Of a stretch of 22,855 bases of DNA, positions 3,687 through 21,254 are shown in pieces (positions within the stretch are counted from its first letter, which is position 1; every line of letters starts with the position of its first letter). Position numbers and translations under genes: made by a program. The notes under the pieces were generated by a model, which was not told where the DNA came from, ran no database searches, and saw only the letters and a list, made by a program, of their open reading frames with translations. The stretch covers positions 6,700 to 29,554 of the IMG/VR virus record IMGVR_UViG_3300030109_000386. One strand, written 5' to 3'. This DNA is from a virus.

Positions 3687-3688
3687 AT

Positions 3689-5310: not shown

Positions 5311-5321
5311 ATTTCCCCGGA

Positions 5322-5612
5322 TTATTTATTTTTACGCCCCCATTTAAGAGGATTTAGTTCAAGTGATTGTTTATACCATTTCTCAATTTCTTCTATTTCT
5401 GCTTCGTGCTTCGCTTCTAATTTAGTAATTCTTTCTGATAGATGCTCAAGCTCTCTTGCAATATTGCTAAGTTGTGTTTCAATACTAACGTATGTATACA
5501 CAAGCGTACCTGTAAGAACAAGCAACTGAATAAGCCACTTAATATTAAGATGGACGCTAAAGTTATCATCAATTCTGTTAACCTTGTACGACCTCGCAAG
5601 GTCCTCATTCAT
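5322..5612 (-). CDS. Second membrane-anchored coiled-coil protein
   Basis: 96 residues. A polar N-terminus of about 24 residues leads to one span (IKWLIQLLVLTGTLVYTYV, roughly residues 24-42) and then a clear coiled coil (IARELEHLSERITKLEAKHE). It ends with a basic patch, KWGRKNK. The topology is like that of its downstream neighbour, suggesting a holin/antiholin pair or an i-spanin-like protein. The ATG at 5612 overlaps the end of the 56-residue gene by 8 bases. A competing frame from 5608 is shorter and lacks the regular heptads, so it was rejected. Function is inferred from topology and proximity to the lysin. Confidence 0.65.
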   Translation of the reverse strand: MNEDLARSYKVNRIDDNFSVHLNIKWLIQLLVLTGTLVYTYVSIETQLSNIARELEHLSERITKLEAKHEAEIEEIEKWYKQSLELNPLKWGRKNK

Positions 5613-5775
5613 CTTTAGGTATTTCTAAACCTAAGATACCTCTCATAATAGTCCATATTTTTTGCATATCTTCTAGTTTAATATCGCCGTAGCTTTTATT
5701 ATCTATCAAGTCGTGGGCTTCTTTACACTTATCTTCAGTGTCCTTTTTCCACGCTTCTAATTCTGCTTTTAACAT
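5605..5775 (-). CDS. 56-residue charged protein, unknown
   Basis: A short frame: ATG 5775, TGA at 5605-5607. AGGAG sits 5 bases upstream of the ATG, giving one of the better ribosome-binding sites in the window. The start is only seven bases after the stop of the collagen-like gene. The product is charged and helical (MLKAELEAWKKDTEDKCKEA, later KLEDMQKIWTIMRGILGLEI). There is no membrane span. It fills an otherwise empty 170-base gap exactly and overlaps the next gene by 8 bases, as is usual here. The function is unknown; small helical proteins behind fibre genes can be fibre-assembly chaperones, but this is only a possibility. Confidence 0.65.
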   Translation of the reverse strand: MLKAELEAWKKDTEDKCKEAHDLIDNKSYGDIKLEDMQKIWTIMRGILGLEIPKDE

Positions 5776-5782
5776 ATAACTC

Positions 5783-7696
5783 CTATTTAAATCCTGTTAC
5801 TAAACCATTAGTTACATCTATTGATTTTGTTGCCCCTTTACTATTAATAAGGAATGACTGACTTCCAGTAAAACTACCACTACCTGCTGGTCCTGTAGGT
5901 CCCGGTGGTCCCGGTGGTCCGTCTGCTCCTGCTGAACCCGAGGGTCCTGCCGGTCCGGCTGGTCCTGCTGGACCTGCTGGTCCTGCACTTCCAGTACTTC
6001 CTTTAGCTCCTGCACTACCAGTACTACCCGTATCACCTTTTGGACCTGCTGGTCCCGGAGGTCCGGGCGAACCATTACTACCATCTGCACCTGCTGGTCC
6101 AGTTCCACCAGAGGGTCCAGTACTACCTGTATCTCCCTTATCACCTTTTGGTCCAGTGCCACCAGAAGGTCCGGCTGGTCCGGGTGGTCCTTGTGCTCCT
6201 GTAGCACCATCATCTCCATCAGCTCCTGCTGGACCTGTACCACCGGATGGACCCGGAGGTCCTGCTGGACCTTGGCTACCAGTTGAGCCTTTTGCACCTG
6301 TATCTCCTTTAGCTCCAGTAGAGCCAGTAGGTCCCGGAGGACCTGCTACGGTACTAGCGGCACCTGTTGGACCTGTAGGTCCTGCAACAGTACTATCAGC
6401 ACCGGGAGAACCTGTAGGTCCGGCAGGTCCTTGCGAACCTGTACTTCCCTTAGGTCCGGCTGGACCTGTTGCTCCTGTGTCACCTTTAGGTCCTGCTGGT
6501 CCTTGTGAACCAGTGTCCCCTTTGTCGCCTTTAGCTCCATTAGTCCCGTTACTTCCTGCTGGTCCTTGAGCACCAGTTGGTCCAGTCAATCCTGACAACT
6601 GACTTGATGTAAAATCTGAATAAACAAAAGCTGGTCCAGTTGGTCCTGTAGGACCAGTACTTCCAGTAGAACCTTTTGGTCCTGCAACACCTTGTGGACC
6701 TGTAGGTCCTACGGGTCCTGCTACTGTGCTATTTGCACCGGCTGGTCCAGTTGAACCCGTATCCCCTTTTAAACCTGTATCTCCTTTTACGCCCTGTGGT
6801 CCGGTTGGTCCGTCATCACCTTTTGCTCCAGAAGGACCTTGAGAACCTGTATCACCTTTATCACCCTTGGCTCCAGTTGGACCAACAACACCTTGAGGTC
6901 CTTGAATACCTTGAGGACCAGTACTTCCAGTCGGTCCAGTAGGACCTGTATTACCTTTAGCACTTAATACTGACCAATAAGTTGCATTAGGTGGTGTATG
7001 ATTTTTACTAGTTTTTATACAAATGTATGAAGTTCCACTATAAATAACAGCATCATCTACTGTGTAAGTTGTAGCACTACTCCAAGTTCCTTCCCATATT
7101 AAACCTTCTGGACCTACACTTCCGGTAGGACCTGTAGCACCAGTAGGACCAGTCCCTCCTGTAGGACCTGTTGGACCTGCTATTCCTTGAGAACCCGTAC
7201 TACCTTTGACTCCTTGTGGACCTGTTGGACCTACTGCACCAGTGTCCCCAGTATCACCCTTGTCACCTTTAGCACCAGCAGAACCATCTGTACCCGGACT
7301 TCCTGTAGAACCCTTAGGACCTGCTGGACCTTGTGCTCCGGTATCGCCCTTTAATCCTTGTGGTCCTTGAGGACCTTGGGGACCTGCTGGACCCTGAACA
7401 CCAGTAGTGCCTTGAGGACCTGTTGGTCCTGTACTATCCCATTGTTCAGATTCTGCTGTTCCAAAAGCATTAAATAACATTTTATATACGTGATGTACAT
7501 CATCATATAACTTATTAAAATCAACTCTTAACAACTCTACAGCGTCCATTACGTTGTGTGTAATAGGGTCTAGTGTTGAGTCTGACTCCACATCATTAGA
7601 ATCAAATAAGTGTGGCAACCTAGCTTTACTTTTAAGCGTAGCTGGTTTACTTGTTAACTCTCTTAAATTTGCGTCTGATAATCTTTCTTTTGCCAT
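5783..7696 (-). CDS. Collagen-like virion fibre protein
   Basis: 637 residues from ATG 7696, which shares an A with the upstream stop; a 21-residue N-terminal extension from 7759 would lie inside the upstream gene. Residues 1-88 are a mixed globular and helical head ([20 protein letters not shown]), a likely virion-attachment domain. Gly-X-Y triplets run over about 90-198, 248-355 and 372-608. The first break (198-248) is a carbohydrate-binding-like module with W-x-[15 protein letters not shown] and an Ala-Thr-Tyr-Trp end. The second carries FTSSQLSGL. Two GA-x-STVAGP linkers occur later. The C-terminal 30 residues end [13 protein letters not shown]. Collagen-like repeats form triple helices and are common in phage tail fibres. 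By hand count, about 20 Lys and 9 Pro occupy the Y position, the positions hydroxylated in animal collagen. Confidence 0.92.
5873..7429 (-). repeat. Gly-X-Y coding repeat region
   Basis: Triplets coding Gly-X-Y, mostly [18 protein letters not shown] and GST, are repeated across three blocks. The repeats are degenerate at DNA level (all four Gly codons are used), which limits slippage. On both strands they create long false open frames. Confidence 0.9.
6953..7105 (-). other. Carbohydrate-binding-like module inside the collagen gene
   Basis: It encodes about residues 198-248 of the collagen-like protein. The pattern W-x-GTW, Tyr, DDAV-x-Y-x-G-x-SYI, PPN and YW, ending in KG, matches the small CBM5/12-like module often set between collagen repeats in phage and bacterial proteins. 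It may bind host glycans. The assignment is from motif pattern only. Confidence 0.6.
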
Positions 7697-9384
7697 TATA
7701 TTGCCGCTAGTTTTAAATACGCACCGTATAAACGATGTGCTGTTGAAGTTGGATTCCATTTAAGTATTATATAACGACCATTGGTAGTGTCAGCCGCTAT
7801 CCCACTTGATGGATTTGTTGCATTATTTGTATTAGTATACAGAGCTGTTACTTGTGCACTTGTTGCAGTAGCTGTTGTAATATCACTATAATAAATATCA
7901 CAAGCTACACTAGCCGTACCATTCATTCTAAAATGAGTAACTTTGTAATTAGCAGGTATAGGTATGTTTGCATATAGTTCTAAGCTAGTAGACATAACCC
8001 TTGCTTGAGCACCATTATCTACCATAGCCGCATTAAAGTAAGAGTTATCATCATTAGGCATAAACTGAGATGGCATTACCCATATATAACCTGCACCTGT
8101 AGAAACACTAGTTCCATAAGTAAGATTTGGTATAGTAGGTTTGCCTTCTAAATCACCATACTGAATACCTGTTGTACTACCATCAATTTGCACATCGCTT
8201 TCAAAAGTACAATCATTTACCACATCTAATTGTCCAGTGATATAAGCGTTTGTCATTATATCTACACCACTTGTTTTTACTTTCATTTTAGAAGCATTTT
8301 GACCTCTAAATTCAGTAATATCACCAGATGAGTTACCTCTATTAAATCTTGTAACGCCATTGTCCACATCTAATTTATAACTATCGCTAGGTGCAGTATT
8401 TATACCTAAACTTCCATCTTTAACATAAACGTGTTTATTAGTACCATCACTACCAAATGTAAAACCACTTACTGTTTTACTATTAGCAAAGAAACCTGTT
8501 TTACCATCTGGGTCAAAAGACAATACCCTTTCAGGGTGTGGAGAACTGCCAGAATAACCATTTCCATTATGTATCCAGAATTGGTCGTTGTCTACAGTAT
8601 GACTTACTCCTATACCAAACTTGTTTGTAGTAGCTGTTTGGAATAATATTCTTGCTTGATTACCTGTACCACCTCTTCTAATAAAAAGTGTTGATGTACC
8701 AAGTGGATTAGTTCCCCCAAGGTCAAATGTAGGATTAGCTCCCTGTACTTCTACTTCAGCTTGACCTGTGCCATCACCTTTTAATACAATTTTTGAATCA
8801 CCATTAGGGTCTTGATTAATAGTAAAGTTACCTTTACAATTAACAGTACCATTAGCTAGTGCTTGAAATTCGTCATCAGCTATTTTAAGATTACCAGAAC
8901 TATCTACTGCAAAAGGATATACACCACTTGCTGGAGTACCAATACTTAATGAGCCACCTACCATAGTTATAGAACTATTACCATCAACAGCATCTTTAGC
9001 GGCAGTGGCTTTGTCTTTTACATCTTTAGCATTGCTTCCGTCAATCTTACCTGTAAAGTCACCTGTACTAGCAGTAAATACCGTTGTTCCGGATGAATTA
9101 GTAATGTCTCCTTTAAACTTACCAGCAGATGTAAATAAACTATTATCTACATTACCTAAACCAACACTTGCTTTAGATAAGCCAGTTGCAGTACCTGTAA
9201 ACGTGGGACTAGCAAACATAGTAGCTTTAGACTCATTAGTTACATTACTAAGACCTACGTCAGCTTTACTAGGTTTATTGCTAGTAGTATATACATTACC
9301 AACAGCTACATTATTAACTTTACCAGTAACATTACCAGAAAAATCAGCATCAGCTCGTTGTAGTTTTTTCCAAACTTTAGCCAA
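7696..9384 (-). CDS. Tail fibre protein with receptor-tip-like C-terminus
   Basis: 562 residues. The start is TTG at 9384: AAGGTG lies 6 bases upstream, and the N-terminus [17 protein letters not shown] matches the ATG-started paralogue at 11514. Residues 42-79 hold one copy of the fibre module [18 protein letters not shown]. Next come beta-rich repeats ([30 protein letters not shown]) and a [17 protein letters not shown] motif common in fibre shafts. The last ~140 residues change character ([15 protein letters not shown] onward, ending [13 protein letters not shown]) and could form a receptor-binding tip. No chaperone-type autocleavage domain is visible. It lies directly upstream of the collagen-like fibre with TAATG coupling. 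Function is by family resemblance; the receptor is unknown. Confidence 0.82.
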
Positions 9385-9577
9385 CTACTTCACCTTCTTC
9401 TACTTGTGTGTATTCAGGGTCAGCTTCTGCCGCCTCTTCAAATGCTTTTTTAAATTTTGTGTGCATATCAAATATCCATTTGCCTTCTGCAACTTTAACT
9501 TCTACTCCAGATAATAAAGTACATACTGCCTCTATTTCTTGAGTTGTGCATTTAACTATTTTCAGTTTCTTCTTCAC
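9377..9577 (-). CDS. 66-residue protein, unknown
   Basis: GTG start at 9577 with AGGAGA five bases upstream, inside the end of the 81-residue gene (26-base overlap). Its end overlaps the TTG of the fibre gene by 8 bases. The product starts MKKKLKIVKCTTQEIEAVC and ends in an acidic tail ([20 protein letters not shown]). It looks like a small alpha/beta domain without a known motif. Its place between two fibre-related genes suggests a fibre accessory or assembly role, but this is position-based only. Confidence 0.6.
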   Translation of the reverse strand: MKKKLKIVKCTTQEIEAVCTLLSGVEVKVAEGKWIFDMHTKFKKAFEEAAEADPEYTQVEEGEVVG

Positions 9578-9797
9578 TTTGCTCTCCTTGCTCTAGCATT
9601 GTTTTAATAAACTTTATTTTTAAATAAGTGGTTGTAGCTTGTTCAAGTTCACGTCCCCTATATGTTCTTTCTATCATTAAGTCGTTTATATAATTTATAT
9701 CAGACAACTCTAATTTTGAAAGTTTTGCTTGTAAGTCTACAACTTCTTCTTTTTGTTCAGTAACTACTGCTCCTTTAGCTTTCTCCCAAAAACCCAT
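9552..9797 (-). CDS. 81-residue helical protein, unknown
   Basis: ATG 9797 shares its A with the stop of the ParB-like gene and is preceded by AGGGAAG. The product is probably helical: an amphipathic first segment (MGFWEKAKGAVV), then VVDLQAKLSKLELSDINYI and LKIKFIKTMLEQGEQSEEE. It ends acidic. I do not recognise a family. Small helical proteins placed between fibre genes are often fibre-assembly factors; this is a weak inference. Confidence 0.6.
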   Translation of the reverse strand: MGFWEKAKGAVVTEQKEEVVDLQAKLSKLELSDINYINDLMIERTYRGRELEQATTTYLKIKFIKTMLEQGEQSEEETENS

Positions 9798-10285
9798 TAA
9801 GACTTCCCTGCATCTATTTTTTCTCCAGCAGAGTTTTTTATATCGTAATCGTACCCAGCAATGTTAGGTTTCTTTTTATGTCTAGCTACAAGATTTGGAT
9901 AACCATTTAATACAGCAGTTTGTGCTATTTGTTTTTTTGGTGTTCCAATATTGCCCTTACTGTCTTTACCGGGAAAGTAATCTTTAACATTAAGAGTTGC
10001 TACTAAACTTGCATCAAATTCAGCTCTAGTCCATATTTCACAAGCAATTTCTGTTGATTGGTCCATAGACATATCTTTTTGCATAAGCCAAACTCTACGA
10101 CCACCATATAATACTTTACCATCAGATTGTACTGCAATGTAATCATAGTCTTCTGGTTTATAACCTTTATCAATCAAAGATTGTTTTAAATCAGAATAAT
10201 CATATGGAAGATTCTCATACTGCCCCTTTTCAGGGACAGTACAAGTTAATTCACTTAGTTTGAACTTTTTTATTTCCTTTGCCAT
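9797..10285 (-). CDS. ParB/Srx-like N-terminal-domain protein
   Basis: 162 residues, with AGGATG upstream and a start sharing its A with the fibre-gene stop. The first half follows the ParB-like layout: FKLSELTCTVP strand, a helix DYSDLKQSLIDKGY, a strand YIAVQSDGKVL, then GGRRVWLMQK, which fits the phosphate-binding G-x-RR box of ParB/Srx folds. The usual DG-x-HR is replaced by YGGRRVW. The second half (KDSKGNIGTPKKQIAQTAVLN, then VARHKKKPNIAGYDYDIKN) is unassigned. ParB-fold domains bind nucleotides or DNA, and some act as nucleases or CTPases. A place inside a fibre block is odd. Fold recognition from motif order is tentative. Confidence 0.5.
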   Translation of the reverse strand: MAKEIKKFKLSELTCTVPEKGQYENLPYDYSDLKQSLIDKGYKPEDYDYIAVQSDGKVLYGGRRVWLMQKDMSMDQSTEIACEIWTRAEFDASLVATLNVKDYFPGKDSKGNIGTPKKQIAQTAVLNGYPNLVARHKKKPNIAGYDYDIKNSAGEKIDAGKS

Positions 10286-11514
10286 TATACATCCTGCACT
10301 ACATAGAGTTCATCGTTATGTATACCTTGAACTCCAACATCTTCTGAAGGTGTTGAAGTTGGGTCACTTATAGTTACTGGCTTTACTGCTTTAGTTGCGA
10401 TACTTGTTGTAATCGTACTATTAAAACTAGCATCATCGTTAAGTGCGGCGGCTAACTCATCAAGAGTGTTTAGAGTACCCGGTGCACTACCAATAATGTT
10501 TGTTTCTGCTGTTGATACTGCGGCAGACTTAATAGTATCTTTACTATCTCCACCTACTGTTTCAGCATCTATTGTTTGTGCTGTACCATCAAGTTTTATT
10601 TTACCACCTGCAACTGTTACTGCTTGGTTAACAACACTTCCTAATCCAACGTGACTTTTAGAAACTCCTGCTACCGTTCCTGTGAACGTAGGAGACGCAA
10701 ACATATCTGACTTAGATTCATTTGTAACATTTCCAAGTCCAACGTGTGTTGCACTAACACCTGCTACCGTACCACTAAAAGTTGGAGATGAAAACATTGT
10801 TGACTTGCTTTCATTAGTTACGTTTCCTAAACCAACGTGAGCCGCATCAACTTCAGAGTTTTTCAATGTTGCTGGGGCGTTAGCTACTTTAATAATTGGG
10901 TCAGAACCACTAGTGTCAAAAGCACTTATTACTGTTGCACCACTTGCCGCACCCGAAGCTACTGTAGAAGCGGCTGTACCACCAACTGTAGCTGAATTAG
11001 CAACTGCACCAGTTAATGTTCCACCTAATATAGTAGCTGTTGAATTATTATCTACGTTACCTAATCCCACGTCATCTTTATCTACACCAGTAATACTACC
11101 AGTAAAGGTTGGTGAGGCAAACATTGTAGACTTACTTTCGTTAGTAACATTGTTTAATGACATTGTAGTTTTTAATGTACTTGGACTCTCGTTTGCTACA
11201 TTTGCTAAACCTACTGCCGCTTTACTTACACCTGCAACTGTACCTGTAAATGTCGGCGATGCAAACATATCTGCTTTAGATTCGTTCGTTACGTTACCTA
11301 ATCCAACATCAGTTGCTGTTGTATTAGAGTTAATCATACCTGCTTGAGCGTTTGCTGTTTTTAGCTTTGTATCGCCATCAAACGCCGCATCAGTTATTGT
11401 TTTTGCCGCTGTTCCAGCGACTGCTCCTGTTTTAACGTCACCTGCCGAGGTACCGTCTATAGTACCCGTGAAGTCACCGTCTGCACGTTGGAGCTTCTTC
11501 CAGACTTTAGCCAT
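10285..11514 (-). CDS. Repeat-built tail fibre protein
   Basis: 409 residues, ATG 11514 with GGAGA upstream. It begins [20 protein letters not shown], a shared virion-attachment start with the 562-residue fibre. Four copies of the module [24 protein letters not shown] occupy about residues 69-99, 118-148, 227-257 and 258-288, with two weaker copies between. Residues 344-375 carry the collar-like APGTLNTLDELAAALNDD motif widely seen in phage fibres. The end is short (ELYVVQDV), with no obvious receptor-tip domain, so it may be a proximal fibre segment joined to another fibre protein. The module also occurs once in the 562-residue paralogue. The family is recognised from the repeat sequence; partner and receptor are not. 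Confidence 0.85.
   Translation of the reverse strand: MAKVWKKLQRADGDFTGTIDGTSAGDVKTGAVAGTAAKTITDAAFDGDTKLKTANAQAGMINSNTTATDVGLGNVTNESKADMFASPTFTGTVAGVSKAAVGLANVANESPSTLKTTMSLNNVTNESKSTMFASPTFTGSITGVDKDDVGLGNVDNNSTATILGGTLTGAVANSATVGGTAASTVASGAASGATVISAFDTSGSDPIIKVANAPATLKNSEVDAAHVGLGNVTNESKSTMFSSPTFSGTVAGVSATHVGLGNVTNESKSDMFASPTFTGTVAGVSKSHVGLGSVVNQAVTVAGGKIKLDGTAQTIDAETVGGDSKDTIKSAAVSTAETNIIGSAPGTLNTLDELAAALNDDASFNSTITTSIATKAVKPVTISDPTSTPSEDVGVQGIHNDELYVVQDV
10648..11310 (-). repeat. TNESK fibre-module repeats
   Basis: Four strong copies, plus weaker ones, of a ~31-residue coding unit ([22 protein letters not shown]). DNA copies differ at many third positions, showing old duplication under protein selection. 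One further copy lies at about 9148-9261 in the paralogous gene. Confidence 0.85.
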
Positions 11515-11523
11515 AGCTATCTC

Positions 11524-11865
11524 CTATTCTTCTACGGACACCAATAGACTACCTTCAGAACTATTGTAATAAAGAGTTCCTTCAGAATTGTCACTAGGTG
11601 CCGATGTTCTTGGTTTTAAATGAACAGCTCCTTGGTAGTCAACCGAGAATACCTCTGTGCTGTTATTAAGTATTTGAAACAAGTCTCCAGATGATACTGT
11701 GCTACTTGTTTGATGTTTTAAAATATTTCCAGATATTAGCTGTGGTAGTACCTCTACATCAGAAGTTCCATTATCTCTATAAAACTTACCATTAGATGTA
11801 TTATACCAAACTAATTTCGTGTATACGTCTTTTACTAAATTAGGACTCGATAAACTACCTGCCAT
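11524..11865 (-). CDS. Small fibre-associated virion protein
   Basis: 113 residues. ATG 11865 shares its A with the previous stop. The sequence has the style of fibre or baseplate surface proteins: KLVWYNTSNGKFYRDNGTS near the start, VFSVDYQGAVHLKPRTSAPS in the middle and GTLYYNSSEGSLLVSVEE at the end. The A-P-S...GTLYYN pattern is frequent in fibre proteins of marine phages. There is no membrane segment. It sits between the TRV-repeat protein and the first fibre gene, and is probably a virion component. The evidence is compositional, so the exact role stays open. Confidence 0.6.
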   Translation of the reverse strand: MAGSLSSPNLVKDVYTKLVWYNTSNGKFYRDNGTSDVEVLPQLISGNILKHQTSSTVSSGDLFQILNNSTEVFSVDYQGAVHLKPRTSAPSDNSEGTLYYNSSEGSLLVSVEE

Positions 11866-12074
11866 TATTGTACCCTCGAATATGTTGGTGCTGTTGGTTC
11901 AGCAACTCTAGTTGAAACTGTAAGTACTGGTTTAACAACTCTAGTTAATATCGGTTTAGTTGGCAATACAACACGAGTTGTTTGAGTACCTTTTATTAAT
12001 GTTAAAAGTATATTATTAAAAGGATAAACTATCTTATCAAAAGCTAGACTAATTTTATCAAAAGCTACTGACAT
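11865..12074 (-). CDS. 69-residue protein of 7- and 11-residue repeats
   Basis: The start and stop are both coupled as TAATG. The product is made of two repeat types. The N-terminus has heptads (AFDKISL, AFDKIVY, PFNNILL at residues 4-24), probably an amphipathic helix. From residue 33, an 11-residue unit begins TRV: TRVVLPTKPIL, TRVVKPVLTVS, TRVAEPTAPTY, then a partial SRVQ. The Pro-rich part is likely an extended strand. There is no known enzyme motif. In this position it could be a short virion linker or fibre-attachment peptide. The repeat structure is seen directly; the function is inferred from context. Confidence 0.65.
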   Translation of the reverse strand: MSVAFDKISLAFDKIVYPFNNILLTLIKGTQTTRVVLPTKPILTRVVKPVLTVSTRVAEPTAPTYSRVQ

Positions 12075-12538
12075 TAGAAATCCATTGGTGCTATACTTTG
12101 TTTAGAACCATCTCTGCCTCTATAAGAATAATTTCTTGCTTGTTTTAAACCTGCCTCATATTTCATCATAAAGTGTTGTGCTAGTGGTATTGTTTCAGCT
12201 TTTCTTTCATAACCATTTGCTATAACTCTTGCAATAAGAGCTTCGTGAAATTGTTCTGGTATTTCACATACTTGATTTAAATAAGTAGCTTCTGTTACTT
12301 GCCCACTACTATCTAGCGTAGTTTCTAAGTAAGTATCCCCTGAAGAAAAACCATCTCTTTCTGGTCCTTCTCCGGGAATTAAAAATTTATCGGGTCTTTG
12401 TATATATAATAAGTTTACTGTAACTGCATCTGTTGGAGTAGTAAACTTGTCTAAGTTAGCATCATAATATGCAATAAGAACAGAATCACGTTCTGTCCAC
12501 CATAAGTATTGACTAAGATTAAAGTTACTTCGTTCCAT
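12074..12538 (-). CDS. Head-tail adaptor-like protein
   Basis: 154 residues. ATG 12538 shares its A with the stop of the 87-residue gene and has AAGGGA upstream. The layout fits podovirus adaptor proteins: short beta strands at the start (YLWWTERDSVLIAYYDAN, then VNLLYIQRPDKFL), followed by a conserved-looking helix, ICEIPEQFHEAL in style (here VCEIPEQFHEALIARVIANG), and a C-terminal amphipathic helix (AQHFMMKYEAGLKQARNYSY). Such proteins form a ring beneath the portal. The N-terminal helical part expected of this family may be the separate upstream 87-residue cistron. The assignment rests on pattern and position between head and fibre genes. Confidence 0.55.
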   Translation of the reverse strand: MERSNFNLSQYLWWTERDSVLIAYYDANLDKFTTPTDAVTVNLLYIQRPDKFLIPGEGPERDGFSSGDTYLETTLDSSGQVTEATYLNQVCEIPEQFHEALIARVIANGYERKAETIPLAQHFMMKYEAGLKQARNYSYRGRDGSKQSIAPMDF

Positions 12539-12801
12539 TACGTTAGGTCCCTTTCTTTGGGTCTACCTATTAATTTTTTAATTGTTTTGCCGTTATAATC
12601 TACACCTTTAACTTTAATAATATGCTTTTTTAATGGATATACTCTTTGATTTGCAGTTGTTGTAAATTGGTCTATCGACTCTACCATCTCTGCTCTAAAT
12701 CCCATATCGTTCATTCCATCATTTAACGACCTTACAATTTCAACTACTCCCATATCTGGATGATGTTGCTGTACTCTTTCAATCATCTCTTTTAGTTTCA
12801 T
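12538..12801 (-). CDS. Small connector-type protein (possible adaptor N-terminus)
   Basis: 87 residues. ATG 12801 overlaps the TGA of the upstream gene as ATGA. It starts with helices (MKLKEMIERVQQHHPDMG, VEIVRSLNDGMNDMGFRAEM), followed by strands (RVYPLKKHIIKVKGVDYNGK), and ends RPKERDLT. The helix-then-strand order matches the first half of single-gene adaptors, whose second half resembles the next gene. The two frames differ by -1. No proper slippery heptamer was found in frame, so translation coupling is the simpler reading. It may be a genuine two-subunit adaptor. Confidence 0.55.
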   Translation of the reverse strand: MKLKEMIERVQQHHPDMGVVEIVRSLNDGMNDMGFRAEMVESIDQFTTTANQRVYPLKKHIIKVKGVDYNGKTIKKLIGRPKERDLT

Positions 12802-13847
12802 ACTTGCCTCTCGTTAGTGTCAAGTTTTTTAGGAGTTATATTTAATTGTATAAACTCTTGTTTCTTGCTAGTTATTAATTGTAGTTGTTGAGTCATCCAT
12901 TGATAATCAACTTGTATCTTTTGTATAACTGTATTATATAGCTGTATTTTTTTAGCTAAGTTAGCTTGGAACTCTGCTAAAGCCTGTTGCTTTTGTGCAG
13001 ATTGTCCACCAAGCTCTGCATTAAATTCACTTAATATAACATTCGCTCTACTTAATTCTTGTGCGGCAGTAGCTAGTGTTACTTGTACCATATCTTCATC
13101 TTCATCGTTTAACCAATATTGTACACTTTCATTTTCTGTATCACCACCCATTGTAGTGCCATCTATTAAATTTTGAGCTTTTGTTATTGCATCATTAAAA
13201 TCACTTGTAGGAAATGTGTAACTAATACTAGCTGATACGTCAGCTATTTCATCAAATAAAGTTGTATTACCATCTAAGTCTGTTGGTAATGTACTAGCAA
13301 AGTTAGATAACTTTTCTATTAATAAAGTTTCAGATGCGTGTAGTACTACTAATTCATTAAATTGAATAGGAAATCCACTTTGAGTACTAGCATCTCCATC
13401 TGAATTATAAATCTTTTCATTGTTGTCATTAAAACTATATCCATTAATATTCTGAACTACTTCTAACTTTATTTCACTACCTGAACCAGCAATAGGGCTC
13501 ATATATATTTTAGCACCTTCTAAATAATAAGCTGGAGATAATGCAGTTGCAAAATGTATACTACTGCTGTCAGCTATTCTATCTTTTACAGAGGCTGATA
13601 CTTTTCTAGCTTCTCTAAAAACAGAACCATCTTTTCTACTTACATTTAATAAATAAAGTCCCTTAACATCTGTTTGCCAATTTATTCCATTAGCAACCGA
13701 TTCTAATGTTGTTGAAAAATCTTCTAACAAAGCAGGGTTTTGCCCTATAAGAGAAAGAGTATATTCTATACCCTTTTCAAGTGCTTGATTTAAATCTAAA
13801 CCCGATATTGAATGTAGATTCTGTTGTAATCTAGTAGTAAATGACAT
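12798..13847 (-). CDS. Virion structural protein after the capsid gene
   Basis: 349 residues, ATG 13847 with AAGGAAAA upstream. The first ~200 residues look beta-rich (GLYLLNVSRKDGSVFREARK, YYLEGAKIYMSPIAGSGSE, then FPIQFNELVVLHASETLLIE). The FP-x-x-x-x-LVV-x-x-A segment is typical of phage head-completion or adaptor proteins, in which a strand region is followed by helices. The last third (about 255-340) is a long helical stretch (ANVILSEFNAELGGQSAQ, AEFQANLAKKIQLYNTVIQK). Position right after the capsid gene supports a neck or head-completion role. It is separated from the capsid gene by a very stable RNA hairpin that may set its expression relative to capsid. Confidence 0.6.
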   Translation of the reverse strand: MSFTTRLQQNLHSISGLDLNQALEKGIEYTLSLIGQNPALLEDFSTTLESVANGINWQTDVKGLYLLNVSRKDGSVFREARKVSASVKDRIADSSSIHFATALSPAYYLEGAKIYMSPIAGSGSEIKLEVVQNINGYSFNDNNEKIYNSDGDASTQSGFPIQFNELVVLHASETLLIEKLSNFASTLPTDLDGNTTLFDEIADVSASISYTFPTSDFNDAITKAQNLIDGTTMGGDTENESVQYWLNDEDEDMVQVTLATAAQELSRANVILSEFNAELGGQSAQKQQALAEFQANLAKKIQLYNTVIQKIQVDYQWMTQQLQLITSKKQEFIQLNITPKKLDTNERQV

Positions 13848-13858
13848 CTATATTTTCC

Positions 13859-13886
13859 TTATGAGGGGTCCGAAGACCCCCCATAA
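13859..13886 (-). promoter_or_regulatory. C(UUCG)G stem-loop after the capsid gene
   Basis: In the transcript the arms are UUAUGGGGGGUC and GACCCCUCAUAA, pairing over 12 base pairs with one G-U, closed by a UUCG loop on a C-G pair. This is the extra-stable tetraloop class. No U tract follows; the next bases are the GGAAAA ribosome-binding region of the downstream gene. It could be an attenuator, an mRNA 3' end protector or a processing site. Confidence 0.75.
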
Positions 13887-13903
13887 TATACCTAATCCGT
13901 TGA

Positions 13904-15229
13904 TTAAGACCACTTCATAACTGCGTGGGTTTCAGGTAGACTGATTTCTAAACCGGCTTCGGTCATAACCATATCTTTTCTTCCATCCACATTGTTATTC
14001 TGTATGTTTGTCAAGATGTGAGTGTCTCTTGATACACCATTACCTTGTAACGGTCTATACTTAACATTAGCTAAGTCAATAGCTATTGCAAGATTCTCAT
14101 CCTGACCTCTGAACAATGGTTCTGCTACGAAATGCAAGTTACCAAAGATTGTATTAATCTTAGTTACTTGGTGTCCGAAAGCACCTTGAATGTTCTGAAC
14201 ATCTAACTTATAAGAGCTAGAAGAGACAGTGTTATTCAAGAAACCATTAGAGCCTAGCTTATTTAAGTAAGCTAAGACCTTACGAGAAGCAAGTACTAAC
14301 TTGTCTCCACTATTTCCAGACTCTGGTGCGTAGAAATCTTTCATCGCATCAATAAAGTCATCATAAGTAGAGGAAGCATAAGTAAAATTAAAAATCTTAC
14401 CATTTGCTTCAGTGTAAGGTACAATACCGTGAGAGTATCTAACTGGTCCACCAGCGGCGGCTTCGTCAGATTTACCAATGCCAAACAACATAGCGTGTTC
14501 AATATCCATCTTATGTTGCATTAGGCAGTCAGCCCAAACTCTACGATATTCATCTGGTCTTCCTCTGTAACGAGTAGCTAAAGAAGAACCACTAAAGAGC
14601 TGAATAGCTGTCTTAAAAATCTGACAGTATCCTTCTCTAGAGTAAAGCTCATCTTTCCAGCCTTCTGGGTCAGTAGACCCTTCAGCCCAAGCACTTCCAA
14701 TTACTTGACCTTTCGCTCCGACTTCAACGTCTGCTTCAGCAATAGCTTCTAAAGCTGTACAAACTATTTCAGAGTGAGTTGTTGCGTCACCAGTAGAGTA
14801 AGTTCCAGCATTACCATCACCGATTGTAACACCAGTGATTTTAAGTGCTTTCCCATTTACTCTAATTACTTGTCCAACAAGTAAGTATTGAGGTGCCGCT
14901 GTACTTGACCCACCACCTAAGGTGAGGTCGTTACCGTATTTGTCGTAATCAGCTACGACATCATAAGTAACTGAGGCATCCTTTGCAGTTGCCGCTCCGT
15001 CTGTCTTAACAATAAAGTTCCTACGTTGCCATTGATGACGCTGTTCAAGAAATTTGAATACGGGGTCATCCGTAGCCTCTTTTGCAACTTTGCTTAGATA
15101 GACAAAAAACGGTGACTGTTGAGGAGCTAACTCAGATACTCTTTCGCCAAAATTAAAAATTCGGCGGGAATCATTGATACTGATGCCCTGTGGGGCTACG
15201 CCAGTATCATTACTAAAGACATTTGCCAT
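13904..15229 (-). CDS. Major capsid protein
   Basis: 441 residues, ATG 15229 with GGAGATA upstream. It lies right after the scaffold-like gene, where the capsid gene is expected. Features: an N-terminal GVAPQGISINDSRRIFNFGE segment, then VSELAPQQSPFFVYLSKVAK, RHQWQRRNF, a central KDELYSREGYCQIFKTAIQL, MQHKMDIEHAMLFGIG and GIVPYTE. The C-terminus (QNIQGAFGHQVTKINTIFGN, then NNVDGRKDMVMTEAGLEISL, PETHAVMKW) closes with the typical P-domain-like strands. This pattern resembles the SU10-type capsid family with the HK97 fold. The product should be the most abundant structural protein, which agrees with the strong hairpin following it. The subfamily is from recall. Confidence 0.85.
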   Translation of the reverse strand: MANVFSNDTGVAPQGISINDSRRIFNFGERVSELAPQQSPFFVYLSKVAKEATDDPVFKFLEQRHQWQRRNFIVKTDGAATAKDASVTYDVVADYDKYGNDLTLGGGSSTAAPQYLLVGQVIRVNGKALKITGVTIGDGNAGTYSTGDATTHSEIVCTALEAIAEADVEVGAKGQVIGSAWAEGSTDPEGWKDELYSREGYCQIFKTAIQLFSGSSLATRYRGRPDEYRRVWADCLMQHKMDIEHAMLFGIGKSDEAAAGGPVRYSHGIVPYTEANGKIFNFTYASSTYDDFIDAMKDFYAPESGNSGDKLVLASRKVLAYLNKLGSNGFLNNTVSSSSYKLDVQNIQGAFGHQVTKINTIFGNLHFVAEPLFRGQDENLAIAIDLANVKYRPLQGNGVSRDTHILTNIQNNNVDGRKDMVMTEAGLEISLPETHAVMKWS

Positions 15230-15265
15230 TTTAGTATCTCCTAGTTACACCCACCGACTAACAAG

Positions 15266-16228
15266 TTAACCGAATGGGTTTCGTTTTTTATAGTCATTTA
15301 TCATAGAATCCATCATAGTGTCTTGACCGTTTTGCTGACTAGAACTTTGTCCGGGTACTACACCCATAGGTGTAGGTACAGATTGTGCTCTTTTTCGTTG
15401 CTCAAAACTTTCACTTTGTGCAGTTTGGGTCATTGGCTGTACAGCCTGAGTACCATTTTGCATCCTGTAAAGTTGAAATAAGTTGTCTACAGTAATATTC
15501 TTAGGGTCATCCATCACCTCTACAAACTTAGCTACTTCTTCATCAGATGCTTGATAAGTTTGTTGTAAATGTGATTTCATATTCGTCATATTACTATTGT
15601 ATTCTTCTCTTTCAGCTTGAGCCCTTTGAATTTCTTTCTGTTCTTCGTGTATTCGTTGTCGTTCCTCAACCATTACTGCTTGAGTGTATTGTTGATGTAA
15701 GCGATTATATTCATCCATATCATCACGCCACTTATCAACAGTGTCTAAATAACGAGCACTTTCAGAACTCGGGTCATCCAATGCGTCAGCTCTGCTATAT
15801 CCTGCCGGTTTCCCCGGTTTTGCTGGGGGGTCAGGAAAAGTCAGTTCTTCTTCAATAGGTTCTAATGTTTCTGGCTGTGGCTGAACAGCTTGATTTTCTA
15901 ATGCTTCAAGGCGTTTTGCCATTTCTGCATTTTCATTTCTAGCCTTATCTGCCTCACTTTGCCAGTATTGATAACGCTTGACATCATTATCAACGGGTGA
16001 TTCCCCCTCCGTAGCTGTTTCTGTAGGTACTTCAACTGGTGAAGGCTCATTTACAGCTTCAGATGGAACATCGTCCATCTTATTTGCACGAAAAAAGTCA
16101 TCTATCAATGTACCTTTATCCTGAGTTTGGTCAAACGCCGCTTCAGGTGTCATAGGTGCATCTTGAGGAACGCTTACTGCTGGTTCAGGGGTAACCGGAG
16201 CTTCCGGTGCCATTACTTCTTCAGTCAT
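15266..16228 (-). CDS. Capsid scaffold-like protein
   Basis: 320 residues, ATG 16228 with AAAAGGAGAA upstream, a strong site. The N-terminal ~75 residues are acidic and Pro/Glu-rich (PEAPVTPEPAVSVPQDAPMT; LIDDFFRANKMDDVPSE). A charged helix follows (RYQYWQSEADKARNENAEMA), then a Gln/Glu-rich coiled-coil region (MVEERQRIHEEQKEIQRAQA) and a helix SDEEVAKFVEVMDDPKN. The C-terminus is basic (DYKKRNPFG), as scaffold tails that touch capsid often are. Size, charge pattern and the position between portal and capsid fit a scaffold that is lost during maturation. No protease gene is seen in the window. Sequence alone cannot show removal. Confidence 0.75.
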   Translation of the reverse strand: MTEEVMAPEAPVTPEPAVSVPQDAPMTPEAAFDQTQDKGTLIDDFFRANKMDDVPSEAVNEPSPVEVPTETATEGESPVDNDVKRYQYWQSEADKARNENAEMAKRLEALENQAVQPQPETLEPIEEELTFPDPPAKPGKPAGYSRADALDDPSSESARYLDTVDKWRDDMDEYNRLHQQYTQAVMVEERQRIHEEQKEIQRAQAEREEYNSNMTNMKSHLQQTYQASDEEVAKFVEVMDDPKNITVDNLFQLYRMQNGTQAVQPMTQTAQSESFEQRKRAQSVPTPMGVVPGQSSSQQNGQDTMMDSMINDYKKRNPFG

Positions 16229-16260
16229 TTGTTCTCCTTTTCTTGATTGCGTAGGCTCTG

Positions 16261-18426
16261 TTAGGACTCAGAGGTGCTACTTTTTTTATTATCAGCGATT
16301 GTTCTACGAACTTCACTTTTAGCTTGTCCTAAAGCATCATCAAGGCGTTTCTCGAACATCTTAGCAGACGCTTTACTTTGTGTGCTAGTCTTGTCGAGTT
16401 CCGTCTTAAATTTTTCTATTTCAGCTCTTTGCTTAGCGTGGTATACTTCTCTTTCACGAGTCTGCATATCACCTTTTAATTTTTTAATCTGCTCTTCTTG
16501 TGCTTGGAGTTTTTGTTGTAATTGTCCAACTACATCAGTTCTTTCCAATACACCTTCCATATCAAATACTTCTGTCTTCTTTAATACTTCTTGCTTATCA
16601 ATAATTCCATTCTTATAAGCATCCATATACAACTCAAGTTGTGCATATCTATTTGTTGGTAATGTAGAGCCTGTAACTACTACAATATCAAAACTGCCTC
16701 TAGAAATATCGTTCATAACGCTTATTTCACCAGTTTTATCATCATATATCTTTTTATTAATTGCTATTTCTGATAAACTATTATTAGGTTGTACAATTCT
16801 TACAATCTTTTCAGCTTGGTATAGTTCCTGCATAAGAGGTATAGCTACCTTTGCCATTCTAACTAATCCAGATTCTATATCTTGTAATTTAGATTTAATC
16901 TTTCTTTGTCCAAATTCATCAAGTGATACTGTAGCCTTGTATGTGTGAGGGGCGGCTTCAGCATTACCTTGCATAAGTTCATATAAACCTAATGCGTGGT
17001 CTATGTCTGTTTTAGCTACTTGTTCATTTTGAAATAAAGTATTAGGTAATGGTGTGGGCTGTACCGGTTGTGGAGCACCAGAATCCATATCAACCTCAAT
17101 AGCCACACCCGGTTGTGCCCAACGCTGTTCAAAATCTTGCATATCAACAGAACCACTTGGTATTAAAATCTTTGTATTCGTACTTGTTGTAGCGTGGGCA
17201 ATTATAAGAGACCGTGTCTTATTGATATATTCTTGCATATCCTTTACCATCCTAACGTCAGAAACCGGGTAGGGTGTTCTAGTATGTATATTCATAAACA
17301 ATACAATAGGATAGTGTTCCGTGGGTAAGATACGGGAATACAAGTATTTGTCTCCCATTATGACGCACATCTTGACCCTTTGTACTGGAACCGACACGGT
17401 CTCTATAAGACCTTCTTCTACTAAATCGGCATAAGTTAATTCCTCTATTTTTGGCATTTCTGGTTCTGGTTCTTGCTCCATTTGAGCTTTTTGAACCATT
17501 TGTTCATATTGTTGCATTATCTGTGCAATCAAAGCTTCTGCTTTTTTAGCATCTGTAATAGGCTGACCATTTATCTTAACTGCTGGTCTAGCTAAGTATT
17601 CCTGCATAGCTTCTTGGTCAAAGACTTCTTCAACCTTATCTATATTGTTTTTTACGTGGAATCGTTTAACCCATACTTTATAGTAACGCTCGTAACCTCT
17701 TATATATTCAGAGTTCTCGCCAAAGTTTAAATCTGTTTTTGTTGCTGTATCTTCTGGAAATACTATACCTCTATCATCTACTCTTTGTGTAGTAGGTCTG
17801 TCTGTGTGTAAATCTGATGTGGCGTTTTTAATTGCAGTCTCATATTGAGGATACATCTTCATAGCTTGTTCTTTAGTGAACATTCTACTTATAATAATAT
17901 TCTCTGCATCGTCACCTAATCTATCTCTAGCATTAGGGTCTATATAAATATCTAATGGGTCAACATCGTGAAAACATACTTCACCTCTACCAAAGTCCTT
18001 GAGAGGGTCAATATACACCATCATAGCACCGAGTCCCATTGTATAATAGTCGTCTATCGCATTACGGATTGCCTGTGTTCCGTCCGATATATACCACATA
18101 TATTCAAGTAGTCCATTAAAAATCTGAGCTACTTTGTTATCGCTATCTTCTCGAGGTGATACTCTGAATTGTGGTTTGCCTGAAGTAAGTAAAGCCTTGG
18201 CGGCTTCAACTGCTGGATGGATTCGGTTTACTACTAGTGGAGCTTGTCCCCTCTCAAGTAAAACTCTTTGTTGTTCTGCTGTCCATTGTCTACCTAATCT
18301 AAATTCAGCGTCTTCTTGAGCTTGTTGTGCCCAAGTCTCACGCTTGTTACTATAAGATTTCCATAATTGTTGGGTAGTATCGACAATATCCTCAGGGATA
18401 GAGTCTTCCCGTTCTTCGTACGCCAT
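16261..18426 (-). CDS. P22-type portal protein
   Basis: 721 residues, the usual size for this family. Seen: WKSYSNKRETWAQQAQEDAE with FRLGRQWTAEQQRVLLERGQ near residues 21-62, the Asn-Arg segment VVNRIHPAVEAAKALLTSGK, and the Asp-Pro block CFHDVDPLDIYIDPNARDRL. Later segments are PIVLFMNIHTRTPYPVSDVR, a helix QEYINKTRSLIIAHATTSTN and a long C-terminal coiled coil (about 640-700). The portal is the dodecameric ring at the capsid vertex through which DNA enters. The Gln-rich coiled coil is a barrel-type extension also seen in P22. ATG 18426 lacks a clear Shine-Dalgarno. It sits directly after TerL, as expected. Confidence 0.9.
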   Translation of the reverse strand: MAYEEREDSIPEDIVDTTQQLWKSYSNKRETWAQQAQEDAEFRLGRQWTAEQQRVLLERGQAPLVVNRIHPAVEAAKALLTSGKPQFRVSPREDSDNKVAQIFNGLLEYMWYISDGTQAIRNAIDDYYTMGLGAMMVYIDPLKDFGRGEVCFHDVDPLDIYIDPNARDRLGDDAENIIISRMFTKEQAMKMYPQYETAIKNATSDLHTDRPTTQRVDDRGIVFPEDTATKTDLNFGENSEYIRGYERYYKVWVKRFHVKNNIDKVEEVFDQEAMQEYLARPAVKINGQPITDAKKAEALIAQIMQQYEQMVQKAQMEQEPEPEMPKIEELTYADLVEEGLIETVSVPVQRVKMCVIMGDKYLYSRILPTEHYPIVLFMNIHTRTPYPVSDVRMVKDMQEYINKTRSLIIAHATTSTNTKILIPSGSVDMQDFEQRWAQPGVAIEVDMDSGAPQPVQPTPLPNTLFQNEQVAKTDIDHALGLYELMQGNAEAAPHTYKATVSLDEFGQRKIKSKLQDIESGLVRMAKVAIPLMQELYQAEKIVRIVQPNNSLSEIAINKKIYDDKTGEISVMNDISRGSFDIVVVTGSTLPTNRYAQLELYMDAYKNGIIDKQEVLKKTEVFDMEGVLERTDVVGQLQQKLQAQEEQIKKLKGDMQTREREVYHAKQRAEIEKFKTELDKTSTQSKASAKMFEKRLDDALGQAKSEVRRTIADNKKSSTSES

Positions 18427-18443
18427 TGGGGCGAGTTTACATA

Positions 18444-19958
18444 TTACATAGTCAACCAGTCAAGAACTTTTCTGGGTTTTCGTTTATAATCGGGGTCCCA
18501 TTCTTTTTTTCTTGCTGGTTTAGCTCCATCGAGTGCATAATAGATACCATCTAGAATATCATCGTGTTTTCCTCTAGGGTAAGATAGAAACTCTTGTTGT
18601 GCGTGTATATCATTTGGTCTAAAATAAAACTCGCCTCTTGCTAGTGGAGCAACCAAGGACAACAATCGTTCGGATTTCTTTTGTCTTGGTTTTATGCCTT
18701 TTTCGAGTCCCGGTATATACAGGTTCTCATCTAGCATCTGTTTTCTTACGTTACTCCTCAGTGCCTCTTGGTAGCCCACTGTTTCTATCTTCATTCTTTT
18801 TGGTCTATATTTTTTATAAGTCTTAATAATAGTTTCCGGCTGGATTGCAGGGTCGAGCTTGTCTCTGAGTATATCCACAATATATTTATTACCATCATTG
18901 TCAAGAGCCATAGTAGCAATAACAAAAAAGTCGCTACGAGCAGAAAGACTACTAGCAGGGTCAATCCCACAATATATCTCAACTGGTTTACGCTCTGTCT
19001 CACCATCGACAGTACGGACCAGTAAATTTTGCCCATTCTCTCTTTTGTACTCATAATGATGTAGTTTTATATATTCTGGCTTAAATGGAGCATTGTCTGG
19101 AGATTGTGCCTCATTCATATACTCTTGATAAAAGCCATTTAAATTACCTACAGATTCAAACTCCTGTTTTATTTGTTGTATTCTCTCTTCAGGAAATCTT
19201 TCTTCCCATATACTCTTACCATCGTCATTGTATATAGAGAACCATAATACATTCCAAGCTGGAGATTCTTTAGCCCAATATAAGAAACAATCCTCTGATA
19301 TAACAGTTCCAATCATAACTACCCTTCCCTCGTCAGAAAGTGATGGTATTACAGCTTCAGTTATCCATTTCCTATTTTTAGCACGTCCTTCTGGTGTTGA
19401 CGCATTTAATTCTGATTCGTAGTCATCTACGATAATGAGATTAGGACGAGTATCACCTTCAATAAACCCCCGTACACGCTGACCAGTACCAACAGCCACA
19501 ATACGAGCACCATTATGTAGTACGATGTCGTTGTTTGTCCATCGCTTAGCTGTTGTGGGTCCATAATCCCCAAACATTTGCTTAAAGTTATTAGAATTTT
19601 CAAGATGGTATTTTATCCTTGATAGAAAGTTAATACTCTGTGTTTGACTTTCCGATATAATTACCATAAAGAGGTCCTCGCCCGATGGCTTAAAGGCTAT
19701 CTTGTGAAGGGGTAGAATCAAGGAGGTCACAGTACTCTTAGCAGTTCCTCTCGGAGCCGCAATGAGTACACGCCTTAGAGTCTCATCGGACAAGGATTTA
19801 TAAATTTCGTGATGGAAAGGGGGTACTTCTTTATTTAGAGCAGTGGGGAACATTGTCTTACCAAATAAGCCAATATTCGACTTCAGCTTTTTCAAAGCAT
19901 TCGTCTGTGCCCACTTCTCCTCAAATGTATCTACCTGAACGGCTGACCCGATATCCAC
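18444..19958 (-). CDS. terL: Terminase large subunit
   Basis: 504 residues with both domains. ATPase: Walker A A68-P-R-G-T-A-K-S-T76, Walker B LIIVDD at 174-179 with E181, and coupling motif MIGT near 215-218. Nuclease (RNase H-like): D333 in GIDPAS, E392 in KIETVGY and D466-D467 in KHDDILDG. The enzyme pumps DNA into the procapsid through the portal and cuts it at the end of packaging. The start is GTG at 19958, with GGGAGAG nine bases upstream; the first internal Met is at residue 36, which would remove part of the N-terminus. It overlaps the oxygenase gene by 28 bases. The length is normal. This is a secure call. Confidence 0.95.
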   Translation of the reverse strand: MDIGSAVQVDTFEEKWAQTNALKKLKSNIGLFGKTMFPTALNKEVPPFHHEIYKSLSDETLRRVLIAAPRGTAKSTVTSLILPLHKIAFKPSGEDLFMVIISESQTQSINFLSRIKYHLENSNNFKQMFGDYGPTTAKRWTNNDIVLHNGARIVAVGTGQRVRGFIEGDTRPNLIIVDDYESELNASTPEGRAKNRKWITEAVIPSLSDEGRVVMIGTVISEDCFLYWAKESPAWNVLWFSIYNDDGKSIWEERFPEERIQQIKQEFESVGNLNGFYQEYMNEAQSPDNAPFKPEYIKLHHYEYKRENGQNLLVRTVDGETERKPVEIYCGIDPASSLSARSDFFVIATMALDNDGNKYIVDILRDKLDPAIQPETIIKTYKKYRPKRMKIETVGYQEALRSNVRKQMLDENLYIPGLEKGIKPRQKKSERLLSLVAPLARGEFYFRPNDIHAQQEFLSYPRGKHDDILDGIYYALDGAKPARKKEWDPDYKRKPRKVLDWLTM

Positions 19959-20503
19959 GATACTATACTCTCCCTAGTTCCAGAAACAACTGGTTCAACT
20001 TTGTGGTTAACCCAAGAAGGAAAGAATACTGCATCTCCTTCATCTAGTTGTATTGTTATATCTTCATTACCACATCTAAATAACAAATTACCACCTTCTT
20101 CTGGTTTCTTTAATAAAATTGTAGAGCTAATCTTTCTATGGTCTATCCCTTTACCACCGAAGTCAGTATGCCAATCATAATGCCCACTCGGAGCATCATA
20201 AAAAGTATATTGCAAACTATCTTTCCAACCTGCAATCTCAAATCCCCAGTTGTCATCATTAGCTATATTAGCCCATTTCCATATTCTGTTGTATAACCAT
20301 TTATATTCACTTGTATCACAGTCTGGCAACCACTTTACCCAACTATCTCTATAATTGTCTCTATCACCTATAGTCTTAGCAGTTGATAAACCTATTGTGC
20401 TTACTAATTCTTTTACTTCATCAATCTCTTCTATATGTAGCATTCTCCTAACTATATACCAGTTAGCAAAGCTAGTCTTCCTCTTTGGTGCTGTTAGTTT
20501 CAA
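19931..20503 (-). CDS. 2-oxoglutarate/Fe(II)-dependent oxygenase, prolyl 4-hydroxylase-like
   Basis: 190 residues. The double-stranded beta-helix core is complete: H112-T-D114 (DWHTDFGG), the distal H167 (VNHKVEPV) and R177 (SGTRESIVSW) for 2-oxoglutarate. Between them lie ISSTILLKKPEEGGNLLF and GDAVFFPS, typical of P4H and PKHD-type hydroxylases. The family hydroxylates Pro, Lys or other targets using O2 and 2-oxoglutarate. TTG is chosen as the start because a perfect AGGAGG lies 6 bases upstream; an internal ATG at 20443 would remove 20 residues and has a too-close site. It lies between the TerS candidate (32-base overlap) and TerL (28-base overlap). A natural target inside this genome is the collagen-like fibre at 5783-7696; that link is inference. 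Confidence 0.85.
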   Translation of the reverse strand: MKLTAPKRKTSFANWYIVRRMLHIEEIDEVKELVSTIGLSTAKTIGDRDNYRDSWVKWLPDCDTSEYKWLYNRIWKWANIANDDNWGFEIAGWKDSLQYTFYDAPSGHYDWHTDFGGKGIDHRKISSTILLKKPEEGGNLLFRCGNEDITIQLDEGDAVFFPSWVNHKVEPVVSGTRESIVSWISGQPFR

Positions 20504-21254
20504 CTGGGACCTCCTGCTTCCTTGTTGCTATTAACTTATTCTCTTCTTGATTAATATTGTCAATTAAAGCTCTGGTTTGGACTGCTTCTATCTTATCAGT
20601 AACCGTTACTGTTTCTTTATCCTTCATTCCGTGTATTTCCATACCATCGTTAACAAAACCCCTTATTCCATTAACATCTTCTTTCTTTAGTGCAATATCA
20701 ACCCCTTGTTTCATTAAATCAATAAAATAATCTGCATCCATCATATTATCTGATAATAACTTTTGTGCTTCATCTCTTTTCATTGTTTTAAATGCCTCCG
20801 TTCGCATATGTCGTTTTAGTTTTCTACGCTTACCAGTACTAATGCTACCATAAACCTTGTCAATAGCAACATCTCTGTTTTCTGTTACTGCCGCCCAGAA
20901 AGCTAAATCTTGATAATCATTACTACCACATCTAACCTCTAACCAGCTTTTACCAGTCATAGTAGTGTTAGTAACTCTACCACCACAATTAAGTTTCTTA
21001 GTGGGGTATTTGCTATCCCACATAATATAGCCAAAAGGAAACCTAAAATAATAGCTATTTCTACCATCTTTAGCTTTGTATTCCTTTTTCTTTATAAGTC
21101 GTGCTACAAAGTCATCATCTGTAAGAGCATAATCACCTTGTTCTACCTTCTGCCAGTGTCTAAATGGTATCTTTGCTTTTAATGCCTCATCTTTAGTATA
21201 GATGATATAGTCAGTAGGACCTTTATCTTTATGGTTAATCGTTACTGAAAACAA
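20472..21254 (-). CDS. Terminase small subunit candidate
   Basis: 260 residues from a TTG at 21254. No ATG is in frame before residue 79, and the upstream frame is closed by a TAA. The N-terminus has DYIIYTKDEALKAKIPFRHW, followed by a beta-rich middle (RNSYYFRFPFGYIMWDSKYP; KSWLEVRCGSNDYQDLAFW). The second half is helical and basic (KRRKLKRHMRTEAFKTMKRD), and residues ~190-245 (DVNGIRGFVNDGMEIHGMKD; VTVTDKIEAVQTRALI) resemble the C-terminal part of small terminases. Position just ahead of TerL supports that. An ATG at 21276 in another frame opens a 13-codon peptide only, so a frameshift or a weak start near here should be considered. Function is not proven. Confidence 0.45.
   Translation of the reverse strand: MFSVTINHKDKGPTDYIIYTKDEALKAKIPFRHWQKVEQGDYALTDDDFVARLIKKKEYKAKDGRNSYYFRFPFGYIMWDSKYPTKKLNCGGRVTNTTMTGKSWLEVRCGSNDYQDLAFWAAVTENRDVAIDKVYGSISTGKRRKLKRHMRTEAFKTMKRDEAQKLLSDNMMDADYFIDLMKQGVDIALKKEDVNGIRGFVNDGMEIHGMKDKETVTVTDKIEAVQTRALIDNINQEENKLIATRKQEVPVETNSTKEED
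20510..20515 (-). promoter_or_regulatory. Perfect Shine-Dalgarno for the oxygenase TTG start
   Basis: AGGAGG, six bases before the TTG at 20503, lies inside the coding end of the upstream gene. It decides the start choice against the later ATG at 20443. Confidence 0.75.

Follow-up and report, generated by a model that had tools for sequence, protein, structure and literature searches.

A phage-encoded candidate prolyl hydroxylase and the collagen-like tail fibre it may modify

Can a phage hydroxylate its own collagen-like fibre? The question is raised by a 22,855-nucleotide (nt) stretch of DNA (hereafter referred to as the window), part of the 29,554-base IMG/VR record IMGVR_UViG_3300030109_000386 of an uncultured marine phage, which encodes both a collagen-like tail fibre and a 2-oxoglutarate (2OG)- and Fe(II)-dependent oxygenase resembling prolyl 4-hydroxylases (P4Hs) and PiuC. 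Gly-X-Y repeats also form the trimeric fibre shafts of EPclA–D in enterohaemorrhagic Escherichia coli (EHEC) prophages, whose describers considered the necessary prolyl hydroxylases to be absent from bacteria and viruses (PMC3368898). Unlike the EPclA–D loci, the window encodes a P4H-like gene together with its fibre genes, and its fibre trimer is a prediction. Viral use of P4H has been termed cryptic (PMC9301287), and a search limited to an open-access library gave no paper that joins phage collagen to a phage-encoded prolyl hydroxylase. Here we propose, at a probability of roughly two in three, that the oxygenase is a peptidyl-prolyl hydroxylase acting on the phage's own collagen-like fibre, chiefly on X-position proline. 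The two genes are as follows.

5783..7696, minus strand: collagen-like tail fibre, with an N-terminal domain, five G-X-Y runs, a CBM_5_12-like insert and a 30-residue C-terminal tail [30 protein letters not shown]
19931..20503, minus strand: P4H/PiuC-like 2OG-Fe(II) oxygenase of 190 residues, the proposed prolyl hydroxylase of the fibre

A preliminary description of the window had placed a 637-residue Gly-X-Y protein and a complete 2OG-Fe(II) core in these two intervals without giving a strand. Both assignments hold, on the minus strand; a plus-strand reading was rejected, its translations being full of stops. The fibre open reading frame (ORF) runs for 637 residues from an ATG at 7696 that overlaps the stop codon of the preceding fibre gene, and the frame stays open further to an ATG at 7759, which would give 658 residues. 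The Pfam Collagen family (PF01391) matches eight stretches of the protein (E = 1.1e-59), which contains 146 G-X-Y triplets in runs of 37, 25, 10, 22 and 52. The X residues include 63 Pro, 28 Ser, 19 Ala and 17 Asp, and the Y residues 50 Thr, 24 Ala, 21 Lys, 19 Gln and 9 Pro, in agreement with an earlier hand count of about 20 Lys and 9 Pro in Y. Since a sample of 120 random viral contigs, 994 kb in all, contains only about two real collagen genes, such a run is not a chance occurrence. Its PF01391 repeats, its place in a late structural cluster and the other fibres adjoining it identify the protein as a collagen-like phage tail fibre. Between the collagen runs, residues ~204–241 of the 637-residue form resemble CBM_5_12 with a score under the Pfam cut-off (E = 8e-5).

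The oxygenase starts at a TTG codon preceded by AGGAGG, matches PF13640 (E = 2.9e-14; 54 bits, cut-off 27) and is assigned to PHROG 61. Its core residues H112, D114, H167 and R177 are invariant across 15 relatives, and these residues and an AlphaFold2 model (predicted local distance difference test score 87) together display the HxD...H triad, 2OG-binding Arg and double-stranded beta-helix of the 2OG-Fe(II) superfamily. A Foldseek search with the model returned as best PDB matches the P. putida P4H (4iw3, E = 2.6e-10), PHD2, PiuC and an algal P4H; the top 50 matches were prolyl hydroxylases and PKHD/PiuC proteins, with no lysyl hydroxylase among them. Also matched was the collagen P4H (vCPH) of Paramecium bursaria chlorella virus 1 (5c5t, E = 2.6e-8), likewise a virus-encoded, short single-domain P4H fold; however, vCPH belongs to an algal virus and shares 18% identity, whereas the enzyme of the window is phage-encoded and has a candidate tail-fibre substrate in the same late cluster. 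The BFVD database yielded mostly 2OG oxygenases of cyanophages and uncultured phages, along with P4Hs of giant viruses and a single phage protein that carries the annotation procollagen-lysine dioxygenase. Residue R123 aligns with an Arg of Bacillus anthracis P4H, which we take to be substrate-binding and to precede the strand after the HxD motif, and a profile match to this bacterial P4H (3itq, 5hv0), a member of a different subfamily, spans residues 21–190 (E = 0.001). By predicted structure and alignment, the oxygenase thus has the fold and putative substrate Arg of a collagen-type prolyl 4-hydroxylase.

The same searches bear on the idea that the enzyme oxidizes DNA or nucleotides, in the manner of AlkB or TET, or hydroxylates free amino acids. 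In keeping with it, the oxygenase slot adjoins terminase genes, one PHROG match is to a family labelled DNA endonuclease (weak, E = 0.004), and a weak profile match links the protein to a DNA 6mA (N6-methyladenine) demethylase (E = 0.04). However, neither Pfam nor NCBIfam gives an AlkB or TET match, the folds matched are those of peptidyl-prolyl hydroxylases and PKHD proteins, and the linkage to collagen genes described below argues otherwise, so that we regard such an activity as highly improbable.

If the oxygenase acts on the fibre, do the two genes travel together? A search with the major capsid protein gave about 80 distinct close relatives; most are fragments, and their genes are arranged in a strongly conserved order. 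Their oxygenase slot, in which the gene is present or absent, lies between the gene for a 260-residue protein and the terminase gene, and their collagen slot is flanked by a fibre gene and a holin-like gene. Many contigs terminate in or near the collagen gene (repeatedly so in G002, G006, G010, G019, G022, G025 and G027), presumably where its repeats break assembly. Because this would bias naive counts, only contigs reaching the collagen slot were counted, and the oxygenase-bearing G004, G010, G019 and G023, which break there, were left out. All ten informative oxygenase-bearing relatives carry collagen (G000, G002, G003, G006 with a partial fibre, G011, G020, G025, G062, L141 and L143/L144). 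Four relatives have collagen without the oxygenase (G018, G024, G026 and G027), and four have neither (G005, G029, G030 and G031); we used this strict table, with its four verified genomes lacking both genes, in place of a looser one with seven. The Fisher test gives p = 0.023, or p = 0.077 without the two lineages in which the genes are adjacent, values that are only indicative because the genomes are related.

In those two lineages, L141 (capsid 57% identical to that of the window) and the more distant L143–L145, an oxygenase 43% identical to ours lies downstream of the collagen gene, separated from it by one or two small genes, and directly precedes a homologue of the holin-like gene, away from the terminase. 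Lys-rich collagens also lie 2–5 kb from oxygenases of 30–33% identity in the distant phages L148 and L160. A possible fibre-modification island in L148 (positions 1–7473) comprises a collagen gene with 33% Lys in Y and, close by, genes for a GT17 glycosyltransferase, a DUF6445 protein, a 2OG-FeII_Oxy_4 protein and a member of this oxygenase family. L160 (positions 2–10567) and G057 carry several long Lys-rich collagen frames (1,266–1,387 residues) and an oxygenase of this family. Gly-rich proteins of L151, L157 and L158 were rejected as collagens.

Which residue, then, would be modified? Proline occupies 38–63% of X positions in phages with the enzyme (n = 9) and 11–23% in those without it (n = 4); the ranges are disjoint (p = 0.003), and other structural proteins show no difference in Pro between the two groups (p = 0.32). 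A review gives X-Pro as 19% in all bacteria and 31% in Gram-positives, and reports hydroxylation of (PPG)n by B. anthracis P4H in the X as well as the Y position (PMC8968730). The N-terminal domains of the fibre are common to oxygenase-bearing and oxygenase-lacking phages, indicating that the same fibre gene is compared; the C-terminal tail differs between some relatives of the two groups. Two sister contrasts agree with the correlation. The first sets L057, with the enzyme (38% X-Pro), against L055, without it (11%), their capsids being 92% identical. The second sets G025, with the enzyme (46%), against L063, L066 and L068, without it (12, 23 and 20%), with capsids 88–94% identical. In L061, L063, L066 and L068, the site between the 260-residue gene and the terminase retains the last 8–9 oxygenase codons (WIS...), fused in frame to a small membrane-peptide ORF, the very peptide whose end precedes the intact oxygenase in L065 and L058. 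This deletion scar shows that the enzyme was lost in that clade and polarizes the second contrast. The oxygenase has decayed separately in L025 and L165, where its last 24 codons remain.

The preliminary description had held lysyl hydroxylation to be as likely as prolyl and had looked to the Y position; neither view fared well. A lysyl hydroxylase would, like collagen PLOD enzymes and mimivirus L230 (PMC5802723), act on Y-position lysines, here the 21 of the fibre, perhaps to allow their glycosylation. Those lysines speak for it, as do the Y-Lys-rich collagens (33–47%) linked to the oxygenase in L148 and L160; with the GT17 and further oxygenase-type genes of L148, the mix of modifications may be another one there. 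Yet Y-Lys does not track the enzyme, being if anything lower in phages that have it (0–16%) than in those that lack it (10–21%); it falls to 0–3% in the adjacent collagens of L141 and L144, and the closest folds are prolyl rather than lysyl. Mimivirus, too, encodes collagen together with a 2OG oxygenase that acts on collagen, but it is a giant virus of amoebae, and its lysyl-specific L230 is not among the structural matches listed for our oxygenase. A lysyl activity is thus very unlikely. Y-position Pro was rejected as the main target, since it is rare (2–8%) except in L141 and L292, and it is X-Pro that follows the presence and loss of the enzyme. The target is therefore probably neither Lys nor Y-position Pro. 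With the fibre–oxygenase link borne out by co-occurrence in relatives, by adjacency and by an unrelated bacterial operon, the earlier interpretation as a whole is partly supported.

That bacterial parallel emerged when bacterial genomes were scanned with a profile of the phage oxygenase; the scan, blind to collagen, gave 47 loci. At about 16 sphingomonad loci, the oxygenase lies 0.1–4 kb from a lipoprotein gene with (Gly-Pro-Thr/Ser)n repeats, which contain no Lys in Y. At both of the two loci tested, the upstream neighbour of the oxygenase gene codes for a ShlB-type transporter, and clusters of a ShlB/FhaC-type transporter, 2OG oxygenase and repeat lipoprotein are found in L303 (8162–12401), L310 (8148–16117) and about 14 others; the L303 lipoprotein has no Pfam match. 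Collagen calls on the strand opposite the sphingomonad genes were discarded as frame artefacts. When the C-terminal domain of the lipoprotein, which lacks the repeats, is used as the query, 11 of 150 Novosphingobium genomes have both genes, 2 the oxygenase only, none the lipoprotein only and 137 neither (p = 5e-15), so that 11 of 13 oxygenase-bearing genomes have the lipoprotein; this genus was used because a Sphingomonadaceae-wide sample held too few oxygenases (3/121). In L292, an Acidimicrobiales contig, a collagen-like surface protein gene overlaps the oxygenase frame. On a tree built from 82 oxygenases, the members linked to collagen are spread over four separate clades.

Several observations weigh against a fibre prolyl hydroxylase. 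Sequence profiles in the PDB and NCBIfam rank PiuC over P4H, and PKHD-type PiuC/YbiX (3dkq, 9ghl, 9qn1) is the best sequence and profile match; however, the oxygenase stays well under the NCBIfam equivalog cut-offs (47/143 bits; 21/399), and its family is linked to phage and sphingomonad collagen genes. The enzyme is not obligatory, since the fibre persists in four relatives that lack it. Fibre alleles exchanged by recombination may confound the X-Pro contrast, and among these related genomes the independent sister contrasts number only two. Physical linkage in bacteria could allow co-inheritance without an enzyme–substrate relation, and the L292 collagen has its Pro in Y (40%) rather than X. 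Finally, no collagen was found in the genomes of the cyanophage and pelagiphage family members P-SSM7, S-SM1, S-SCSM1, HTVC008M and Mosig. Other substrates must thus exist in the family, and our claim is limited to the subfamily of the window. Nor was collagen found in the vicinity of the oxygenase homologue in two marine single-cell virus records and an uncultured phage of 735 kb.

These collagen-free phages suit an account in which the enzyme modifies another phage or host protein (for instance EF-Tu, the target of P. putida P4H) or serves host takeover, its association with collagen being due to hitch-hiking in a late-gene module. The nearest fold, P. putida P4H, was solved with EF-Tu, and in the lineage of the window the oxygenase adjoins the terminase, not the fibre gene. 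Such an account, however, does not lead one to expect adjacency to collagen genes in both phages and bacteria, near-exclusive co-occurrence in Novosphingobium or a shift in X-Pro upon enzyme loss, and we consider it unlikely.

As a prolyl hydroxylase of the fibre, the oxygenase would use Fe(II), O2 and 2OG to act on nascent, unfolded Gly-X-Y chains inside the infected cell, mainly at X-position Pro in Gly-Pro-Thr, Gly-Pro-Ala and similar triplets, before three chains fold together. This would be expected to make the triple-helical fibre stiffer and more stable, or to provide a handle on which further modification could build; 4-hydroxyproline in X can stabilize Gly-Hyp-Thr helices, though not in most contexts. 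A broader proposal, on which we are evenly divided, is that these enzymes form an undescribed prokaryotic family of collagen prolyl hydroxylases, unlike known P4Hs, that act on X-Pro (Gly-Pro-Thr/Ser) of phage fibres and sphingomonad lipoproteins, with fibre composition co-evolving with enzyme gain and loss.

How are the two genes arranged in the window? They are the outermost members of an unbroken minus-strand run of 16 genes, including terminase, portal and capsid genes, with intergenic gaps of −28 to +56 nt, and terminator-like sites in the run are no more frequent than expected by chance. The operon claimed in the preliminary description thus stands as a co-directional run, from whose layout the genes appear to be co-transcribed. 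The neighbouring features are listed below.

5322..5612, minus strand: small holin-like protein (a working label), the downstream flank of the collagen slot by synteny
7696..9384, minus strand: fibre-like protein of 562 residues, upstream of the collagen gene; its [13 protein letters not shown]-terminus is common to it and the 10285..11514 protein
10285..11514, minus strand: tail-fibre-like protein of 409 residues with VGLGNVTNESK repeats and PHROG tail fibre matches
13904..15229, minus strand: major capsid protein (PHROG 1328), the query for collecting relatives
18444..19958, minus strand: terminase large subunit (Pfam Terminase_6C, PHROG 38), overlapping the oxygenase 3′ end by 28 nt and marking its slot
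20472..21254, minus strand: 260-residue protein, possibly the small terminase subunit, upstream of the oxygenase with a 32-nt overlap; the other flank of the slot, in conserved synteny

Elsewhere in the window, 3689–4165 (minus strand) encodes a Glycosyl hydrolase 108 endolysin with a peptidoglycan-binding domain, and 2650–3543 (minus strand) a 297-residue protein conserved in the lineage, for which 'phosphoesterase' is a working name from sequence motifs alone.

Marine phages very often carry 2OG oxygenases (351 of 50,697 phage records match the one of the window), and a natural experiment in which enzyme loss is tied to X-Pro loss gives one subfamily a concrete, testable substrate. The finding challenges the view of phage collagens as never hydroxylated (PMC3368898), and the sphingomonad clusters extend the question to bacteria that can be cultured. 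In addition, work on recombinant collagen could gain a tool from a small, soluble hydroxylase of Gly-Pro-Thr.

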